Source of the DNA: Salimicrobium halophilum
GTDB lineage: Bacteria > Bacillota > Bacilli > Bacillales > Halobacillaceae
Length of the DNA: 64,000 bases
NCBI RefSeq assembly: GCF_900100295.1
Contig: NZ_FNEV01000002.1
Coordinates: 248,001-312,000, forward strand
Direction: 5' to 3'
How positions within the stretch are numbered: the stretch's first letter is position 1; every line of letters begins with the position of its first letter. Both the position numbers and the translations under genes were made by a program. Under the pieces are notes generated by a model. The model made no database searches, had not been told where the DNA came from, and saw nothing but the letters and a program-made list of their open reading frames with translations. Below, piece by piece: positions 46,319 through 62,812 of this stretch.

Positions 46319-47188
46319 TCATGCGGACTGTTTCATGCTTAGTGTGGTGATGGTAAACAGGATAAGAATCATCCCTGCAAGCTGAATGAGCGTGAGTGTA
46401 TCACTTAGTATCAGCACGCCGAATAAGGAAGCTGTCACCGGTTCTACCATCGCGACCATCGAAGCGGTAGATGGAGAGGTCCACTTCACACCGATCAAGT
46501 AAATGATGAACGAAGCACCTGCCCCCAGAATTCCGAGTAACAGGAACCATCCGATGTCACCGGATCCTAAAACATCCGTCAATTCCTGGGTATCCGTGAG
46601 AAGGAACAAGATGACACAGAATGCCAGAAAGGCAGTCGTCAAAATCATCTGCGGTTTACCGATGGCTGCCGCTTTCTTAAAACCGAAAATAAAGAGCGCG
46701 TACGACACCCCGGCACCAAGTCCGGTTGCTATTCCAAGAAAGCCGGCGGATATCTTATCGGTATTGTAAGCTCCTGTAAGCAGAACGATTCCTATCAGAA
46801 CACCGACGATACAAATCCATTTAAACCAGCTCGAATTCTCGATCCCCAATACAAACGAGACTAGAAGCACGAATACGGGCGCCGTATACATCAGGGTAGC
46901 AGCTACGGCTATACTGGAAGACTCGATCGCCAGGAAGTAAAACGTGAAATTCCCTGCAACGCCGAGCCCCGCGATTATGGCGAAGAAGTACAAGCGGCCG
47001 GATACGATCCAGTTCTCTTTCCAGCTGAGCAGAAACCAGCCTATGAAACACAATAATCCTACTGCTCCACGATAGAAGGATATGACAAGAGGGTCCCATC
47101 CTTTACTCATTAAAATATCTGCGATGCCTCCGGTAATCCCCCAGAAGATAGCGGCCAGCACTACCAGAGTGGTTCCTCCAAATTTCAA
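46319..47188 (-). CDS. EamA-family (DMT) transporter, paralogue 1
   Basis: 289 aa with ten hydrophobic helices arranged as two EamA halves (AIFWGITGGIADILMSKGWDPLVISFYRG; the second half starts near residue 150). G-N-F-T-F-Y-F-L-A-I and M-V-A-M-V-E-P-V-T-A-S-L-F-G are the usual signature positions. Drug/metabolite exporters of this type move amino acids or other small compounds. A second, clearly homologous copy lies at 60690-61616. The promoter region carries an 18-bp palindrome over its -10. Confidence 0.85.
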   Translation of the reverse strand: MKFGGTTLVVLAAIFWGITGGIADILMSKGWDPLVISFYRGAVGLLCFIGWFLLSWKENWIVSGRLYFFAIIAGLGVAGNFTFYFLAIESSSIAVAATLMYTAPVFVLLVSFVLGIENSSWFKWICIVGVLIGIVLLTGAYNTDKISAGFLGIATGLGAGVSYALFIFGFKKAAAIGKPQMILTTAFLAFCVILFLLTDTQELTDVLGSGDIGWFLLLGILGAGASFIIYLIGVKWTSPSTASMVAMVEPVTASLFGVLILSDTLTLIQLAGMILILFTITTLSMKQSA

Positions 47189-48256: not shown

Positions 48257-49018
48257 TTATTCTTTGTAACGGTCGATCTCCGATTTCAATCTTTCAGCTA
48301 CCTGTTGGACAGGCCCCTCGAGTTCTGAGCTACTCAACGTTACTTTCGCACGGCTCTCATCCATTTCGAGAGCTTCCGCAAATAGTCCGCCAAGGCCACG
48401 TGCGCGACGATCCACCTCAAGCATCACATCAAGCTTGTCTTCACTCAGGAAGAAAATAGCTTCCAGTTCATCCAGATAAGCCCGGTACTCCCCGCCGGCA
48501 GCGAATTCGAATTCCTGCACGAACCCGTGTCGTTTCGAGTATTCCATTTCGACTTCGCGAAGACGAAAGTCCAGATGGTTTTCAAGCGCTTCGAGTACTT
48601 TTTCGATATACGGGTGAGGCTTCAGCGTTACTGGGTCCCGGTCCTCAGGGTCGAGAGCCATCGGGATATCCGCGCCGGTTTCGAACCAGATCGGTAGACG
48701 TCCGAGGGAAGCAGGAGCGTGGTATGGAAGCTGGATGGTAAATGGGATTTCTTTCGTTTCCCCTTCGCCGATCGTTACGTGATCGCTCACTTTATACTTC
48801 TTGAGCGATACCTTCTCCTTCACTTTCTTGTCATCCACTTCCCGGATCGCTTCTGTCATAAGGAAAATATGAATAGCGTCAATCGTCTGCTCGGCTTCTC
48901 CGCCCTGGACCACGACTTTCCCCTGGACATCTTCTCCCGGGACGAATGTTTCCTTCTCGAGCTGCGTATCTACTTTTGCAGCACCAATGCCTACACTGGC
49001 CAAGAATTTTTTGAACAT
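48257..49018 (-). CDS. spo0M: Sporulation-control protein Spo0M
   Basis: 253 aa, near the 258 aa of Bacillus Spo0M. It has the arrestin-like SpoOM domain: M-F-K-K-F-L-A-S-V-G-I-G-A-A-K-V-D-T-Q-L start, G-E-x-V-x-G-K-V-V-V-Q-G-G strand, I-P-F-T-I-Q-L-P and G-A-D-I-P-M-A-L-D-P-E-D. Spo0M negatively influences sporulation stage 0 and membrane or cytoskeletal processes. ATG 49018 follows AAGGAGGG; upstream codons are not supported. An ECF-like promoter precedes it and the gene is divergent from an ECF sigma factor. Confidence 0.9.
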   Translation of the reverse strand: MFKKFLASVGIGAAKVDTQLEKETFVPGEDVQGKVVVQGGEAEQTIDAIHIFLMTEAIREVDDKKVKEKVSLKKYKVSDHVTIGEGETKEIPFTIQLPYHAPASLGRLPIWFETGADIPMALDPEDRDPVTLKPHPYIEKVLEALENHLDFRLREVEMEYSKRHGFVQEFEFAAGGEYRAYLDELEAIFFLSEDKLDVMLEVDRRARGLGGLFAEALEMDESRAKVTLSSSELEGPVQQVAERLKSEIDRYKE

Positions 49019-49040
49019 AGAAGTACCCTCCTTTTCTACT

Positions 49041-49071
49041 ATTATACGAAAAAATAAGAAAGTTTGGTTCA
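49041..49071 (-). promoter_or_regulatory. ECF-like promoter of spo0M
   Basis: On the minus strand TGAACC (49071-49066), 17 bases containing a T tract, then CGTATAAT (49048-49041). The CGTA core and T-rich spacer fit sigma-W/sigma-X promoters, though the spacer is one base longer than the optimum. CGTATAAT also contains TATAAT, so sigma-A use is possible. Confidence 0.5.
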
Positions 49072-49141
49072 AAAAATTAGTGGTATTACGTAATTTTGCA
49101 CATCCAAAAGACGTTTTCTTACGTATGCTGAATGAGAAACG

Positions 49142-49170
49142 TTGTATTCCGGTGATCTGTTTTCTATAAT
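49142..49170 (+). promoter_or_regulatory. Sigma-A promoter of the ECF sigma operon
   Basis: TTGTAT (49142-49147), 17 bases, TATAAT (49165-49170), 30 bp before ATG 49201. Confidence 0.7.
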
Positions 49171-49200
49171 GGGATTACCACACAGAAAAAGGAGAAGCGG

Positions 49201-49764
49201 ATGAGTACTCAGGATGAAGAACTGTACAGACGCGTCCTTCATAAAGATAAAGACGCGCTCGAAACGCTATACGACAAGTATGAGAAACTGTTGTTTTCCT
49301 TCAGCTATAAAATGACGAACAATCATGGGTTATCCGAAGAAGTCGTGCAGGATGTGTTCATGAAGTTATGGACGCAGAAAGGCACCTATGACAGCTCTAA
49401 GGGGAAATTCTCGAGCTGGCTGCTAACGATCGCAAGGAACGCAGCCGTCGATCTTATGAGAAAGAAAAAGGATACTCCTTATGAACTCGAAGAGAGGGAT
49501 GCCCTTCAAACGAACGAACCTTCCGTCGAAGAAATGTACGAATGGAAGGAAGAAGCGACAGCGGTCAGAGAAGCAATGCGGGTATTAAATGACAATCAAC
49601 AGCGGGCGATCCAGCTTTTCTATTTCGATGCAAAATCCCACAGGGAGATTGCCGAACAGCTGGGTGTACCGCTTGGAACGGTAAAAGGACGAATACGAAT
49701 GGCATTGAAACATTTACAGACAGAGATGAATCGGAGAGAAGGGGGGAAGGAACGACATGAGTGA
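49201..49764 (+). CDS. ECF-type RNA polymerase sigma factor
   Basis: 187 aa with region 2 (LETLYDKYEKLLFSFSYKMTNNHGLSEEVVQDVFMKLW, then FSSWLLTIARNAAVDLMRKKK) and region 4 (MRVLNDNQQRAIQLFYFDAKSHREIAEQLGVPLGTVKGRIRMAL). It has only these two regions, as expected of ECF factors. The downstream anti-sigma gene overlaps it by 8 bp. The RskA-type partner places it with the SigK-like ECF group. It could drive the adjacent spo0M, but its own promoter looks sigma-A dependent. Confidence 0.9.
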   Translation: MSTQDEELYRRVLHKDKDALETLYDKYEKLLFSFSYKMTNNHGLSEEVVQDVFMKLWTQKGTYDSSKGKFSSWLLTIARNAAVDLMRKKKDTPYELEERDALQTNEPSVEEMYEWKEEATAVREAMRVLNDNQQRAIQLFYFDAKSHREIAEQLGVPLGTVKGRIRMALKHLQTEMNRREGGKERHE

Positions 49765-50530
49765 CAAGCGATGCGATATGCTGATCGATTACTTCAATGG
49801 ACAGTTAACAGACGAAGAAGCAAAACAGTTCGAAGAGCATCTGGAGACGTGCGAGTCGTGTCAGGCAGAGCTTGATGAGTGGCGTTCTTTGACGGAAGAC
49901 CTTCCTTACCTCTCCGAACCTGTAGAGCCGGATACAGAGATGAAAGGGCGTGTGCTCTCCTCCATTTTCGAAGAGGAAGAGGGCACTTCTACAGATACAG
50001 GAAATAAAGAACAGACAGTCGAACGTGAAGAAAACATGAATGAACCGGCGTTGTTTCAGCCGAAGAAGAAAAGGAACTGGGCCGTTTGGGGGCTTGCTGC
50101 CGCGCTCGCCGCTTCTCTGATAGGGAATGCAGCGTTTCTCACCCAATGGCCGGCAACGACAACGACGGAACCGGAAGAAGAAGTCGTGATCGATAACCTC
50201 GAACAGGCACTTACTCTTCAGAACCCTGAAGGGGGAGAAGCGAGTGGCCGGGCTTCGATGGTTGCGAATAATGGGGAAGCTCAGCTTGTCGTTCAGGCAG
50301 AACAGCTTGAACCTCTCTCGGGTGATGAAGCCTATCAGGTATGGCTGCTTGAAGAAGGCCAGCCGGTAAGAGCCGGAACCTTCGTACCGAACGAAGAAGG
50401 CACCGGAGCGGTGACGTATCCGATGGATGAGCTCCAGGACGGGAACTGGGATACGCTCGCCATCACCAAAGAACCTGGACCTGATAGTGAAACACCTCAG
50501 GGAGACATTGTACTCGCTGCAGAAATATAA
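49757..50530 (+). CDS. Anti-sigma factor, zinc-finger plus RskA domain
   Basis: 257 aa. The N-terminal zinc-binding anti-sigma domain has H28-x3-C32-x2-C35 (E-E-H-L-E-T-C-E-S-C). After an acidic linker comes one membrane helix (about residues 108-128) and an extracytoplasmic RskA domain (Q-L-V-V-Q-A-E-Q-L...Y-Q-V-W-L-L-E-E-G-Q-P-V-R-A-G-T-F). It should hold the upstream ECF sigma factor at the membrane until a signal leads to release. ATG 49757 lies 8 bp inside the sigma gene. Confidence 0.9.
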   Translation: MSDKRCDMLIDYFNGQLTDEEAKQFEEHLETCESCQAELDEWRSLTEDLPYLSEPVEPDTEMKGRVLSSIFEEEEGTSTDTGNKEQTVEREENMNEPALFQPKKKRNWAVWGLAAALAASLIGNAAFLTQWPATTTTEPEEEVVIDNLEQALTLQNPEGGEASGRASMVANNGEAQLVVQAEQLEPLSGDEAYQVWLLEEGQPVRAGTFVPNEEGTGAVTYPMDELQDGNWDTLAITKEPGPDSETPQGDIVLAAEI

Positions 50531-50539
50531 AGAATGAGG

Positions 50540-50569
50540 GCTGCTCTCTTTAAAAGGGAGCGGCTTTTT
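50540..50569 (+). terminator. Terminator of the sigma/anti-sigma operon
   Basis: GCTGCTCTCTTT (50540-50551) pairs with AAAGGGAGCGGC (50553-50564) through 12 pairs including wobbles, followed by TTTTT. Confidence 0.75.
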
Positions 50570-50596
50570 CTACATACATAGGAGGATGATGAGCGC

Positions 50597-51373
50597 ATGA
50601 TCATTGATATGCAAGGCGTTTCCCTTAAGAGGGAGGGACGCTTCATTCTGAACGACATCAACTGGAAAGTGGAAAAGAAGCAGCACTGGGCCCTGCTTGG
50701 CCTGAACGGATCGGGGAAGACGTTTCTTTTGAATCTCATCAATGCTTATACATTTCCTACGAAAGGAAGAATGAATGTGCTCGGCCTCGAATTCGGTAAG
50801 ACCTATCTTGCTGAAAAGCTCCGCAAGCAGATCGGTTTCGTTTCTGCTTCCGTGCAGAATCGTCTGCATAAAGGAGATAATGCGTTTGAAGTCGTACTGA
50901 GCGGGGCTTTCGCTTCCATAGGGCTGTATGATACACCTACGGATGAGATCAGAGAAAAAGCGATCGGGTTATTGAAAGATCTCGGCTGTTTTGATTATGC
51001 CAACCGTCTGTATGAAACGTTATCCTCGGGGGAAAAGCAACGGGTCCTTATTGCGAGAGCACTGATGGCAGATCCTGAGCTTCTTATCCTGGATGAACCG
51101 ACGAACGGTCTTGATTTCCTCGCGAAAGAACAGTTGCTTGAGTCGGTGGAACGTATCGCTCAGAGGGAAAACGGTCCGACAATTCTCTACGTAACCCACC
51201 ACGTCGACGAGGTGTTACCCGTATTTGAAAACACGCTGCTTTTGAAAGAAGGGGAGATATATGATTCCGGAGACACGTCCCGTCTGCTTACCTCAGATAC
51301 GATGTCTTCGTTCTTCGAAGTGCCCGTTGATATCACCTGGAACAAACGACGTCCATTTTTAATGAAGCGATGA
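50597..51373 (+). CDS. ABC transporter ATP-binding protein (YlmA-like)
   Basis: 258 aa with Walker A G-L-N-G-S-G-K-T (residues 35-42), signature L-S-S-G-E-K-Q-R, Walker B L-L-I-L-D-E-P-T and H-loop V-T-H-H. No permease gene is adjacent, as in YlmA/ModF-type ATPases, which are annotated as transporter subunits but may act in other cytosolic roles. GGAGG lies 12 bases before ATG 50597. Confidence 0.85.
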   Translation: MIIDMQGVSLKREGRFILNDINWKVEKKQHWALLGLNGSGKTFLLNLINAYTFPTKGRMNVLGLEFGKTYLAEKLRKQIGFVSASVQNRLHKGDNAFEVVLSGAFASIGLYDTPTDEIREKAIGLLKDLGCFDYANRLYETLSSGEKQRVLIARALMADPELLILDEPTNGLDFLAKEQLLESVERIAQRENGPTILYVTHHVDEVLPVFENTLLLKEGEIYDSGDTSRLLTSDTMSSFFEVPVDITWNKRRPFLMKR

Positions 51374-51450
51374 ACCCTCGTCACAGAGGGATATTTTTAA
51401 AAAAGTTATAAAAAATTCAACTTTTTTCGAAAAATAATGATCCAGTGCGA

Positions 51451-51496
51451 GATCCTCTCCGTATGCTTGGTGAAATCAATTAAAAAGGAGAGGATC
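51451..51496 (+). promoter_or_regulatory. Hairpin masking the ribosome site of the 51501 gene
   Basis: GATCCTCTCC (51451-51460) is perfectly complementary to GGAGAGGATC (51487-51496), which contains the Shine-Dalgarno sequence of the gene starting at 51501. The loop is 26 bases. Such a structure would hide the ribosome site unless a protein, metal, temperature or RNA opens it. Confidence 0.6.
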
Positions 51497-51500
51497 ATCA

Positions 51501-52844
51501 ATGAACTGGAAAAAAGGACTAGTAACGATTCCGCTTGCTGCAACGATTGCTGTACCGAGCTTAGGATTGAACGTGTACGCGGACGATCACGTAGAAACAC
51601 CGTCCGTCGATACAGAAGCGGTAGAACTTCGGTCATCTCTCGATCATCTGTTGAGTGAACACGTGTATTTGGCAGTAGAAACAATGAGAAAAGGAGCGGA
51701 AGGAGCTTCCGACTTTGATCAGGCTGCCGGCGCATTGAGCCAGAATACAGAAGATCTTTCAGCGGCGATCGCTTCCGTTTACGGAGAAGAAGCGGGTAAC
51801 CAATTCAACGAAATGTGGTCTGAACATATCGGCTACTTCGTCGATTATGTAAAAGCGACAGGTGCTGAGGATGAAGCGGCTAAACAGGAAGCGCTCGATA
51901 ACCTTGGCCAATACAAACAGGAATTCTCCCAGTTCCTTGAACAGGCAACAGGAGAACGCTTAGAAGCAGGAGCACTTGCGGAAGGACTTCAAATGCACGT
52001 GAACCAACTTATCGGAGCATTTGACGCCTTCGTTGCGGGAGATTATGACAAAGCATATGAATATGAAAGAGAAGCGATGAGCCACATGTATATGGTAAGT
52101 AAAGGGCTCTCCGACGCAATGTCCAACCAATTCCCTGAGAAATTCAATGATACATCCGCGGTAACGCCGGCGGCAGATCTACGTTCCGACTTGAGCTATC
52201 TGTTGAGTGAACACGCAGGACTAGCAGTCGTAGCGATGCAGAATGGTATTGACGGAAGTGAAGACTTCGAAGCATCTGCAGAAGCGTTGAGCAATAACAC
52301 CGAAGACTTGTCCAACACGATTGCTTCCGTATACGGAGAAGAAGCGGGACAGCAGTTCCAGCAAATGTGGTCCGACCACATCGGTAACTTCGTCTCTTAT
52401 GTAGAAGCGACAGGGGCGGAAGATGAGCAGGCGAAAGAACAGGCGCTGACAGCACTTGAAGGCTACCGCTCTGAGTTCTCTTCCTTCATCGAAACAGCGA
52501 CCGAAGGAAAAGTAAGTGCTGATGTAATGTCAGAAGGGCTACAAATGCACGTGAATCAGCTAATCGGCGCTTTTGACAGCTACGCTATGGAAGACTATGA
52601 AGCAGCTTATGGTGACATCCGTGCGGCTTATGAGCACATGTTCACTCCTGGTAAAGCACTATCCGGAGCAATTTCCGCACAGTTCCCTGATAAGTTTAGT
52701 CAGGAAATGCCATCCGACATGCCGAAGACCGGCCTTGCACCACAAGATACAGGAATGAATAGCACAACGTGGCTTGCAATCGGTGGAATGTTCGCACTGA
52801 TCACAGCACTTGTGTTCCACTTCAGAAGACAACAGGAACAGTAA
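51501..52844 (+). CDS. Secreted two-repeat His-conserved surface protein with sortase-type C-terminus
   Basis: 447 aa: signal peptide cut after V-Y-A (residue 27), two homologous helical units (about 43-215 and 227-399), then M-P-K-T-G (407-411), a membrane helix and R-R-Q-Q-E-Q. This is the order of a cell-wall sorting signal, with Met instead of Leu in LPxTG. Each unit keeps four His at matching places (54, 109, 166, 195 and 238, 293, 350, 379) amid Glu/Asp, which suggests a metal-binding helical bundle. Function unknown. It is acidic and translation may be controlled by the hairpin at 51451-51496. Confidence 0.75.
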   Translation: MNWKKGLVTIPLAATIAVPSLGLNVYADDHVETPSVDTEAVELRSSLDHLLSEHVYLAVETMRKGAEGASDFDQAAGALSQNTEDLSAAIASVYGEEAGNQFNEMWSEHIGYFVDYVKATGAEDEAAKQEALDNLGQYKQEFSQFLEQATGERLEAGALAEGLQMHVNQLIGAFDAFVAGDYDKAYEYEREAMSHMYMVSKGLSDAMSNQFPEKFNDTSAVTPAADLRSDLSYLLSEHAGLAVVAMQNGIDGSEDFEASAEALSNNTEDLSNTIASVYGEEAGQQFQQMWSDHIGNFVSYVEATGAEDEQAKEQALTALEGYRSEFSSFIETATEGKVSADVMSEGLQMHVNQLIGAFDSYAMEDYEAAYGDIRAAYEHMFTPGKALSGAISAQFPDKFSQEMPSDMPKTGLAPQDTGMNSTTWLAIGGMFALITALVFHFRRQQEQ

Positions 52845-52854
52845 TTAGTAGACC

Positions 52855-52882
52855 GCCTCTTTTTGAAGGGGCGGTTTTTCAT
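52855..52882 (+). terminator. Rho-independent terminator
   Basis: ACCGCCTC (52855-52862) pairs with GGGGCGGT (52871-52878, two G-T/C-G closing pairs), followed by TTTTT. Confidence 0.8.
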
Positions 52883-52950
52883 ATGGAGTAATGTAAGAGG
52901 AAGGAAAACATTTCCTTTTGTCGAAGCTAGTAGACATAAGGAGGTTTATT

Positions 52951-53286
52951 ATGCCAGAAGATTTTTATTGTGAAGAAGTACTAAGCGGGAAAACCCAGGT
53001 AACTAAGGTGATGGAGACCGAAAACATATTGGCTTATTATCATACGAGACCTTTTTGGCCTACCCATATAGTTGCTATTCCCAAGAAGCACATATCTTCC
53101 CTCATCACATTAGAAGAAAGCGATAACGAATTACTATTAGAACTGCTTGGCGTGATCAAAAAGGTTTCCGCTAAGGTAAAAGAAGAAAAGGGTGCTTGTA
53201 GAGTTATAACGAATCTCGGAGAATACCAGGATTCCAAACATCTACATTGGCATATAGTTTCCGGGAAGCCTTTAAGGGAGGAGTGA
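52951..53286 (+). CDS. HIT-family (histidine triad) protein
   Basis: 111 aa. The histidine triad is H-L-H-W-H-I-V near residue 100, and the N-terminal part has F-W-P-T-H-I-V-A-I-P-K-K-H-I-S-S-L as in HIT nucleotide hydrolases. These bind purine nucleotides and cleave phosphoramidates or Ap4A-like compounds. A slightly divergent stand-alone type. AAGGAGG precedes ATG 52951. Confidence 0.82.
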   Translation: MPEDFYCEEVLSGKTQVTKVMETENILAYYHTRPFWPTHIVAIPKKHISSLITLEESDNELLLELLGVIKKVSAKVKEEKGACRVITNLGEYQDSKHLHWHIVSGKPLREE

Positions 53287-60673: not shown

Positions 60674-60705
60674 CAAAAAAAAGAAAGCCTCACATAATGG
60701 AGACT
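60674..60705 (-). terminator. Terminator of the second EamA gene
   Basis: On the minus strand AGTCTC (60705-60700) pairs with GAGGCT (60691-60686), followed by TTCTTTTTTTT. The stem overlaps the stop codon. Confidence 0.65.
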
Positions 60706-61616
60706 TCTTCCGCATATACGATAGGGCTTTCTTGAACTGGGGCAGGCTTCTTGAGACTCAGCACGACGACCGTAATCAAAATCAGTGCGATTCCGAGAAG
60801 CTGCACCAGCGTCAAATGATCTCCGATAAGCAGAAAGCCGAACAAAGAAGCGGTTACCGGTTCTACCATAGCTACCATGGAAGCCGTAGTCGGAGCGATC
60901 CACTTCATACCGATTACATACAGGATAAAGGAAACACCAGCTCCCTGAACGCCTAACAACAGAAACCACACGAGATCTCCAGAAGTCAAAACGCTTGAGA
61001 GTTCTCGAATGTCCGCTACGAGGAAAAGGATGAAACAAAAGGAAAAGAACGCAATCGTGAGCGTAGGTTGCGGCTTTCCGATAGAGGAAGCGTTTTTGAA
61101 CCCGAAGATGAATAGGGCATAGCATAGTCCCGCTGAAAGCCCGGATATCATCCCAAGAACACCGACGGATATCGAGTCAGTATTGTACGCTCCCGTAAGC
61201 ATGACGACCCCGATAAGCACACCGAAGATGCATCCCCACTTGAACCAGGTCGACCGTTCAATCCTTAATAGAAACGAAATGACGAGAACGAATACAGGTG
61301 CCGTATACATCAACGTTGAAGCGACGGCGACACCAGAAGCCTGGATCGTGAAAAAGTAAAAAGTGAAATTTCCGGCAACGCCGACACCCGCCAAAAAGGA
61401 CCAAAGATACAATTTTTTTGAGGAGGTCCGATTTTGTTTGAAGCGGATAAGAAACCATGTGAAAAAACATAGAAAACCGATAGCTCCGCGATAGAAGGAA
61501 ATTACGATAGGGTCCCACCCCTTATCCATCAAAATGTTCGCAATTCCTCCGCTGACACCCCAACATACCGCTGCAAGGATAACCAAGCATACCCCCACCG
61601 ATCTCATCGTGCGCAT
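60690..61616 (-). CDS. EamA-family (DMT) transporter, paralogue 2
   Basis: About 308 aa with ten membrane helices. It is strongly similar along its whole length to the exporter at 46319-47188 (for example W-G-V-S-G-G-I-A-N-I-L-M-D-K-G-W-D-P-I-V-I-S-F-Y and M-V-A-M-V-E-P-V-T-A-S-L-F-G), but it has a longer N-terminus and an added acidic C-terminal tail of about 15 residues. ATG 61616 is 5 bases from GGGAGG; 61619 and 61607 are alternatives. Substrate unknown. Confidence 0.83.
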   Translation of the reverse strand: MRTMRSVGVCLVILAAVCWGVSGGIANILMDKGWDPIVISFYRGAIGFLCFFTWFLIRFKQNRTSSKKLYLWSFLAGVGVAGNFTFYFFTIQASGVAVASTLMYTAPVFVLVISFLLRIERSTWFKWGCIFGVLIGVVMLTGAYNTDSISVGVLGMISGLSAGLCYALFIFGFKNASSIGKPQPTLTIAFFSFCFILFLVADIRELSSVLTSGDLVWFLLLGVQGAGVSFILYVIGMKWIAPTTASMVAMVEPVTASLFGFLLIGDHLTLVQLLGIALILITVVVLSLKKPAPVQESPIVYAEEVSIM

Positions 61617-61998
61617 CATGCCTCCCACTAAATAAAATCTTGCAAACTTCCATCGGAAATCAGTGTGGGCTTGTAACTCAATAGCTTTACCATGTTTCTT
61701 CTTTTCTTCTGTTTGGAAGGCACGGATGATAACTCAGTTGAATGTGAATAGTAGTAGGAAAGTGGGATTCGCATGGTAAGTATTAACAAATTTTATTAAA
61801 TTTTAGCAGGGAACTATCTGTATTTCAATCAAAAATTTTAGAAAAATTTTGATAATTTTTTAAGCGAAAATGGAAACGTTGAATCAGTGGGATTGACGAG
61901 AGTTAGAATTAAAACACTGGAAGGAGTAGTACGTGGAATGAATGGTTGCAAAGGGAGTTGTGTGATTTTTGTATGTCTCTTCTAAGAAGCGCAATAAG
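61617..61998. other. Gene-free AT-rich stretch
   Basis: About 380 bp between the exporter and the sortase terminator. It is rich in A/T with repeated AAATTTT blocks (61790-61860) and has no open frame with codon-like character. A 15-codon frame at 61940 with a distant AAGGAG was judged insufficient. No riboswitch or repeat recognised. Confidence 0.5.
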
Positions 61999-62057: not shown

Positions 62058-62687
62058 TTACTTTTTCAATTCTGTATAAACGACAAGTCTGTCTTCTCTT
62101 CCATTAATGGATTCGTTGAAATCTCCTTCGCAGGTAATGAGATTAAGGGCACTGCGATGGGAATACCCGAAAATGTCTTTGACCGGCGAATTCTTACGAT
62201 TGTAGACTTCTTTTCCTATGACTTCGAAAGTCAGTGTCTTGCCCTCTTTATCTTGGACGTGGATTTCGTCTCCAGCTTCAAGCTTGTGCAAGTCATAAAA
62301 AACCGCCGGATTGACGGTATCATCCACATGACCTGCGATGACAGAATTTCCGGCTGCTCCCGGTTTGGTCCCTGGCTCAAACCAGGCGACGTTTTCCATT
62401 CCATCTGGAACTCCCATACGTCCTTGTTCATCGACTCCTACATGTTCTATATCTGCCTCAACATTGATGGCAGGAATTGAGAGGATAGAGGGAGTGATCG
62501 CCTCCCGCTCATCTTTAATGATCGGTTCAGTATATTCCGTGCTCTTTTTCGTCACTGGTTGGATTTCTGTATTCTCTTCGGTCTGAGCTTGTGTTTTTTC
62601 ATTTTCTGCACTTTCCGTATCTTCACCGGATGAGCTCATACATCCACTCAGTATTACAAGTATTAGCAACAATAAATATTTGTACAT
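62058..62687 (-). CDS. Lipoprotein-type sortase (class D/F-like)
   Basis: 209 aa. The catalytic triad is visible: H120 in I-A-G-H-V-D-D, C186 in L-N-L-I-T-C-E-G (the T-L-x-T-C box) and R200 in R-E-D-R-L-V-V-Y. Instead of a plain membrane anchor it begins with a lipoprotein signal and lipobox L-S-G-C (C16), then an acidic Ser/Glu/Thr linker to residue 60. It is closest in layout to class F-like sortases. A possible substrate is the M-P-K-T-G protein at 51501. ATG 62687 is 9 bases from AGGAGG; TTG 62693 is the alternative. Confidence 0.85.
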   Translation of the reverse strand: MYKYLLLLILVILSGCMSSSGEDTESAENEKTQAQTEENTEIQPVTKKSTEYTEPIIKDEREAITPSILSIPAINVEADIEHVGVDEQGRMGVPDGMENVAWFEPGTKPGAAGNSVIAGHVDDTVNPAVFYDLHKLEAGDEIHVQDKEGKTLTFEVIGKEVYNRKNSPVKDIFGYSHRSALNLITCEGDFNESINGREDRLVVYTELKK

Positions 62688-62812
62688 CTGCAAGAGCCTC
62701 CTTTAAAAAGCATACGTAGGAGAAGCGTTGTTGGATCACATGAATTTTTGAAAAAGGTTCAGATGTGATTCAATGGGAAGAGAAGATATACAATCAAAAG
62801 GAGGGAGAGTAG

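Follow-up and report, generated by a model that had tools for sequence, protein, structure and literature searches.

Analysis of a 64,000-nucleotide stretch of the Salimicrobium halophilum genome (hereafter the window) revealed a gene for a surface protein that carries two copies of one helical domain, and an upstream promoter-like motif that recurs before a sigma factor gene and a sortase gene of the same stretch. Our best reading, to which we give a probability of about 0.5, is that of an ECF-controlled, sortase-anchored, metal-binding surface protein, in which we infer metal binding from conserved residues and a predicted fold. The likely ECF promoter and the likely co-regulated sortase are additions to an earlier sequence-only reading of the gene. 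The features on which the analysis rests are as follows:

49101..49129, + strand: predicted ECF-type promoter of the sigma gene, 1 mismatch
49201..49764, + strand: ECF sigma factor, SigK-like by its best NCBIfam model, under the cut-off; no Cys
49757..50530, + strand: anti-sigma factor, zf-HC2 and RskA_C
51375..51390, + strand: terminator-like hairpin between the ABC ATPase gene and the surface-gene promoter; weak
51439..51467, + strand: predicted ECF-type promoter of the surface protein gene, GATCCA-N15-CGTATGCT, 0 mismatches
51501..52844, + strand: surface protein gene, 447 aa, ATG start (ORF, family models, pairwise domain alignment)
51501..51581, + strand: signal peptide, about residues 1-27 (...VYA/DD; by eye)
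51612..52148, + strand: domain 1, residues 38-216; core His54, His109 and His166; Asn82 and Asp85; variable His195
52164..52700, + strand: domain 2, residues 222-400; core His238, His293 and His350; Asn266; variable His379
52719..52841, + strand: sorting signal with MPKTG (residues 407-411), hydrophobic stretch and charged tail FRRQQEQ
62058..62693, - strand: sortase, closest to class F, candidate anchoring enzyme (Pfam, NCBIfam)
62709..62737, - strand: predicted ECF-type promoter of the sortase gene, GATCCA-N15-CGTATGCT, 0 mismatches

Domain architecture and distribution of the family

Pairwise alignment of the two domains revealed 59% identity over 179 residues, ungapped (E = 1e-72). The His columns common to both lie at unit positions 17, 72, 129 and 158, i.e., residues 54, 109, 166 and 195 in domain 1 and 238, 293, 350 and 379 in domain 2; unit positions are used hereafter. 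The surface protein has 11 His and no Cys, with a pI of 4.18 for the chain past residue 27. Its C-terminus matches the NCBIfam model TIGR01167 (LPXTG_anchor) with 18.6 bits against a cut-off of 15.9, the motif being MPKTG and not LPXTG, and the Pfam anchor model remained under its cut-off (15 vs 20). The C-terminal motif, the hydrophobic stretch and the charged tail together qualify the protein as a predicted sortase substrate. The duplicated domain with an M-P-K-T-G signal, proposed for 51501-52844 from the letters alone, was therefore confirmed by the identity of the two units and the TIGR01167 match, and the description of the protein as secreted, acidic and wall-sorted was supported by the signal peptide, the pI and the same model.

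The closest relatives are found in Salimicrobium species (89–93% identity). The same genome encodes a second copy, 54% identical over residues 9-403, that ends in three SLH stretches and has no sorting signal. The ABC ATPase gene at 50597-51373 was dropped as a linked neighbour, as it is next upstream only in the Salimicrobium loci L003-L005 among 38 loci, a spurious short ORF being disregarded in deciding the next upstream gene. Two minus-strand genes of the window that by eye encode similar EamA-type transporters, at 46319-47188 and 60690-61628, flank the region.

A profile grown from the two domains identified 146 copies in the loci first fetched, and the final set holds 190 full copies, 183 of them distinct. 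The domain is common, with profile matches in 157 of 398 genomes and 44 of 145 genera in the class sample, yet no Pfam or NCBIfam model of it was found; with a single protein as query, 24 of 398 genomes in the phylum sample gave a match. In the architectures seen, the domain occurs twice together with MPxTG, SLH (L002) or Cu_amine_oxidN1 (L041, L047), four times with a sorting-like tail (L051) and once with LysM (L056). Single-domain forms occur with or without an apparent signal peptide (by eye), and such relatives were also present on Methylocystis and Nocardioides plasmids. Four of them (L171, L172, L173 and L174) have a Tyr/Pro/Trp-rich or LysM-like N-terminus and no apparent signal peptide, and are possibly spore-coat proteins. 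Among tandem proteins with a recognised sorting motif, the first residue was Met in every case (69/69), with Leu, Ile and Val also permitted; the tally was MPKTG 25, MPDTG 16, MPNTG 14, MPSTG 7, MPETG 3, MPQTG 2, MPATG 1 and MPAAG 1. For 25 single-domain loci, no neighbour group besides the domain itself was seen in more than four. On a Planococcus versutus plasmid, a gene annotated to the plastocyanin/azurin family (L073, 6083-6595) lies divergent to and adjoining a family gene, a single case.

Residue conservation in the domain

Conservation was counted over the 183 distinct domain sequences of the 190 full copies, with copies having at least 25 gap columns excluded (an earlier count, under the same exclusion, covered 127 distinct of 140 copies). 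His17 and His129 were each found in 183/183, and both are also kept in single-domain proteins from other phyla. His72 was present in 176 sequences, with only Gln in the other seven, and the fourth His, His158, in 121. Asn45 was found in 178, with only His in the other five, Tyr57 in 178 (Phe in the other five), Gly58 in 182, and Asp or Glu at position 48 in 172. An alignment of 33 members, reaching down to 17% identity with domain 1, has H17, N45, G58 and H129 as its invariant columns. The sequence-only reading had four His at identical positions, and these are shared by both domains; their equal weight did not hold, as three are strongly kept and H158 is variable. The pattern suggests one small site per domain, and the storage of metal that had been considered along with metal binding gained no support. 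The His-to-Gln exchange at position 72 and the Asn-to-His exchange at position 45 are, in our judgement, of the kind expected among metal ligands and so favour metal binding.

One relative on an IMG/VR viral contig (L200, 4767-5531; 23% identity) lacks the core His by eye, which indicates that the domain can exist without the site. This relative agrees with a structural role, in which a polar layer of His and Asn residues would hold the helices in their packing and the acidic, duplicated domains would serve as a coat or spacer, a halophile-adapted protective cover. The use of the acidic domain in multiples and with several wall anchors points the same way. We nevertheless consider this role unlikely, since complete conservation of H17 and H129, single-domain proteins of other phyla included, is stronger than packing usually needs.

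Predicted structure and the candidate site

AlphaFold2 predicted domain 1 as a six-helix bundle (pLDDT 88.8, pTM 0.84; 26 sequences), with helices at 4-32, 38-60, 62-87, 91-102/104-116, 122-144 and 148-176. The core His residues (20, 75 and 132 in model numbering) are each 12 residues ahead of the ends of helices 1, 3 and 5, and the conserved Asn (48 in model numbering) sits 10 residues into helix 2. In the full-length model (pLDDT 74.2, with segments 1-35 and 402-447 under 50), the corresponding offsets from His to helix end were 12, 12 and 12 residues in the first copy and 13, 12 and 12 in the second. The two models were built from 26 and 13 sequences, all closely related. Hydrophobic moments calculated from 83 non-redundant sequences placed H17, H72, H129 and N45 at -21, -28, -46 and -50 degrees from the buried direction, with D48 (-110 degrees) and H158 (-116 degrees) off the core face. 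Three core-facing His at matching height on helices that run from a common end would fit a single shared, buried site. Given that H158 is both variable and off the core face, the candidate site comprises three His with Asn/Asp near, and not four His. The helical domain of the sequence-only reading is thus upheld by the predicted fold, and the His residues are not dispersed along the helices, three of the four being at a matching helix level on the core side.

A three-His core with Asn near, together with the His/Gln and Asn/His exchanges, favours transition-metal binding at about even odds. Points against the metal reading are the position of D48 off the core face, the viral relative without the core His, and the neighbours of the family genes, among which no metal genes occurred repeatedly. 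A more specific proposal would be an enzyme, with a mononuclear centre of three His and a carboxylate acting at the surface on superoxide, peroxide, NO or a small organic substrate. The three His, the acidic residue at position 48 and the Y57-G58 pair kept in most sequences would suit such a centre, as would ECF-type control. Against this, D48 points off the core, Y57 lies where helix 2 ends, the family searches returned no enzyme, and no recurrent electron-donor gene was recognised among the neighbours, so that we consider an enzyme very improbable.

Searches for a known family or fold

Pfam and NCBIfam gave no match over cut-off that covers the domain in the proteins scanned. Pfam searches with 33 diverse members revealed no shared match, with the commonest family occurring in two; the Priestia protein L077 had no Pfam family at E <= 0.01. 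The surface protein itself had no match among PDB sequences at E <= 10. The earlier impression that the protein matches no named family was therefore borne out by Pfam, NCBIfam and the PDB sequence search, and a profile match to a characterised non-metal family was looked for and none was found. In the open-access literature, the matches listed included no paper on the domain family, none on an MPxTG class F substrate and none on a sigma factor controlling such a surface protein-sortase pair.

A profile of the 33 members gave 11 matches in the PDB, the best of which was 9dm3, a 132-residue 'naphthalenediimide binding protein' (E 3.8e-7, profile positions 12-113), followed by a match at E 0.14. 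From its name we take 9dm3 to be a designed helical binder, presumably matched for its helical-bundle composition. None of 492 Foldseek matches in the PDB reached E <= 0.001. In a structural second look, a designed six-helix barrel came first (Z 10.1), with microbial rhodopsins at Z about 8-9; both are below the Z of about 13 that the tool states as the telling level for helical bundles, and a relationship to either is not claimed.

These matches bear on a rival reading, the protein as a surface scavenger or sensor whose core accommodates a small ligand or organic cofactor, be it heme, another porphyrin, a quinone or a signal molecule. H17 on helix 1 and H129 on helix 5 could coordinate a heme axially, in line with the retention of these two His alone in all sequences and the loss of H72 in seven. 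The likeness to the barrel and the rhodopsins, below the telling level, and the profile match to the naphthalenediimide binding protein over residues 12-113 also speak for a ligand. On the other hand, three His on one level exceed what a two-ligand heme needs, and the rhodopsin and PDB-profile likeness may be generic to helical bundles. We regard a ligand-binding core as improbable and favour metal binding.

Among viral predicted models, one of 323 Foldseek matches had E <= 0.001, a Bodo saltans virus protein (A0A2H4UVS3; TM 0.88, E 4e-6), and three Caudovirales proteins showed TM 0.86-0.89 at E 0.0012 to 0.029. In tblastn searches of phage records, the window protein and L058 gave no match and L074 gave one unverified contig. 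The viral contig search gave none with query A4, none with L074 and two loci with query A5, and one of the 33 members matched PHROGs (E 0.00097).

Promoter motif and likely regulon

The sites before the surface protein and sortase genes follow the general pattern GATCY-N16-CGWWN, to which the site before the sigma gene is a near match; the strict form of the pattern is GATC(C/T), 16 bases and CG(T/A)(T/A)(A/G). The strict motif was present upstream of 43 of 61 tandem loci, with a spacing of 16 in 42 of the 43, and in 0/61 when the region was reversed; the loci counted include duplicates (L001/window, L003/L015, L004/L017, L005/L016, L051/L070) and the fragments L052 and L071. Eight of the 18 loci without it are Salimicrobium copies with another -10 base: these copies, the surface protein gene of the window included, have CGTAT at -10 and are missed by the strict pattern. 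The strict motif was found in 0/20 single-domain loci, and the regulon claim is accordingly confined to the tandem forms.

Allowing up to two mismatches, the window contains three motif sites against 0.36 expected, a number reached in none of 100 shuffles. Across the whole genome, the pattern ATCCA-N14-16-CGTATG occurs at eight places, three of them the window sites, against one for the reversed pattern. A longer pattern occurred 46 times in 14 of 18 relatives, and never reversed; these genomes were hand-chosen, mostly for having the surface protein gene. Of 38 distinct sites among the 46, 19 lie before domain-family genes, six before sigma genes, five before sortase genes homologous to that of the window and eight before others; by coordinates, five of the remaining eight of the 46 are also just before family genes. 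Of the 'other' sites, one (L150) has a sortase-like gene 344 bases downstream by position. Two lack a clear gene, and the rest precede a gene that by eye looks DoxX-like, the gene of a small secreted protein, ABC-type genes at distances of 753 and 1515 bases and, 504 bases off, the gene of a 703-aa membrane protein. The sortases behind the same motif in L146, L148 and L152 have a C-terminal extension that by eye is fibronectin type III-like. All promoter and co-occurrence counts come from related genomes and are not independent. Within 49000-53000, no sigma-70 promoter was found (4.5 expected in shuffles), and six terminator-like hairpins were present against 3.7 expected, which is weak evidence.

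The product of 49201-49764 scored 133.5 bits against NCBIfam SigK and did not reach the cut-off of 226; its translated ORF has no Cys by eye, so the redox cysteine pair of SigK is absent. The anti-sigma factor matched RskA_C with 70 bits (cut-off 29.4). Based on the upstream site of the sigma gene itself and on synteny, the window sigma presumably reads the motif. Among the fetched stretches of 38 loci, a window-type sigma was found in 13, the anti-sigma in 14 and the sortase in 13, the neighbour groups being BLAST clusters of which a few members are possibly other ECF or unrelated genes. In Methylocystis and Nocardioides, ECF sigma genes next to the single-domain genes were not counted, as they are only 29% and 23% identical to the window sigma. 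Taken together, the surface protein gene, the sortase gene and the sigma/anti-sigma pair likely form one regulon. The shared promoter gives the protein a testable context consisting of a motif, a sigma factor, an anti-sigma factor and a candidate anchoring enzyme.

Co-occurrence with a class F-like sortase

The product of 62058-62693 matches Pfam Sortase with 83 bits (cut-off 26.6). Its best NCBIfam model is class F, at 140.6 bits against a cut-off of 166, and the class F cut-off was reached by none in 61 relatives, for which reason we call it class F-like. A tandem protein and a class F-like sortase occur together in 33 of these 61 relatives and are both absent from 22, with the protein only in two and the sortase only in four (Fisher p = 1.5e-10 by genome and 9e-5 by genus, both made optimistic by kinship). 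The two with the protein only are G001 and G044, the G044 protein having a Cu_amine_oxidN1 end for which no sortase would be needed. Those with the sortase only are G026, G038, G040 and G050; in G026 there is also a short fragment with 60% identity to the surface protein.

The same genome has a second class F-like sortase, directly 3' of a different secreted protein with an MPQTG motif at its end, which by eye resembles DUF4397. These two (G000:C16, locus L080, 466-1926) form what appears to be a second sortase-substrate pair with an M-P-x-T-G motif. As the second sortase follows another MPQTG protein, it is from the shared promoter motif that we infer the 62058-62693 sortase to be the enzyme anchoring the surface protein.

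Proposed mechanism

Based on these observations, we propose a stress-inducible system in which an envelope signal would free the ECF sigma from its RskA_C anti-sigma. The freed sigma would then transcribe its own operon, the surface protein gene and the class F-like sortase gene from one promoter type. Upon export of the surface protein, MPKTG would be cut by the 62058-62693 sortase, and both domains would be linked to the cell wall. Each domain is predicted to be a six-helix bundle in which core His17, His72, His129 and Asn45, close in level, would make up one site, most likely for a transition metal such as copper, zinc or iron. The protein may act as a surface buffer for this metal or employ it in redox chemistry. 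If metal does bind to the three-His core, six-helix bundles would gain a new natural metal site.

More broadly, but with considerable doubt, the domain may represent a metalloprotein fold that has no name so far, with a three-His centre on helices 1, 3 and 5 of a six-helix bundle. It would be found in Gram-positive surface proteins, in secreted Methylocystis and Nocardioides proteins and, by fold, in phage and giant-virus proteins, and in Bacilli it would be deployed on the wall by its own regulon of ECF sigma, anti-sigma and MPxTG-specific class F-like sortase.

Comparison with known systems

The database names of the relatives are misleading. Proteins called 'copper amine oxidase' on Planococcus plasmids (WP_232336900.1 and WP_065524945.1) belong to the same family, being 61% and 54% identical, and like the window protein have two domains and an MPxTG end. 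The name may come from the Cu_amine_oxidN1 module of L041 and L047; unlike these relatives, the window protein has no Cu_amine_oxidN1 match, and it is not taken for a copper amine oxidase, having no amine oxidase match in Pfam at E <= 1. Likewise, 'glycosyltransferase' proteins on Cytobacillus and Priestia plasmids hold a single copy of the same domain, and glycosyltransferase was rejected, as neither the window protein nor any of the single-domain proteins scanned matched such a domain. The domain resembles hemerythrin-like metal proteins in being a helical bundle with His on several helices, and differs in having six helices. Hemerythrin was also rejected, as the window protein has no Pfam match to it at E <= 1; one of the 33 members matched at E 0.014, and the whole L051 protein scored 25.0 against a cut-off of 25.3.

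The regulatory pair resembles SigK-RskA of Mycobacterium tuberculosis in that the ECF sigma adjoins an anti-sigma factor with RskA_C; it differs in that the sigma has no Cys and is under the SigK cut-off and in that the anti-sigma has zf-HC2. In the published accounts, SigK of M. tuberculosis controls surface antigens and its cysteines are described (PMC7509140), and SigK is controlled by a disulfide (PMC7509140, PMC8103513). Disulfide control of the SigK type cannot apply to the Cys-free sigma of the window. Compared with class F sortases and their substrates, the window sortase has its best model in the same class, with a score under the cut-off, and the substrate motifs, where recognised in the tandem proteins, begin with Met throughout. 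If the proposed link is correct, the class F-like sortases of Bacilli would acquire both MPxTG as a predicted substrate motif and a pathway that induces them.
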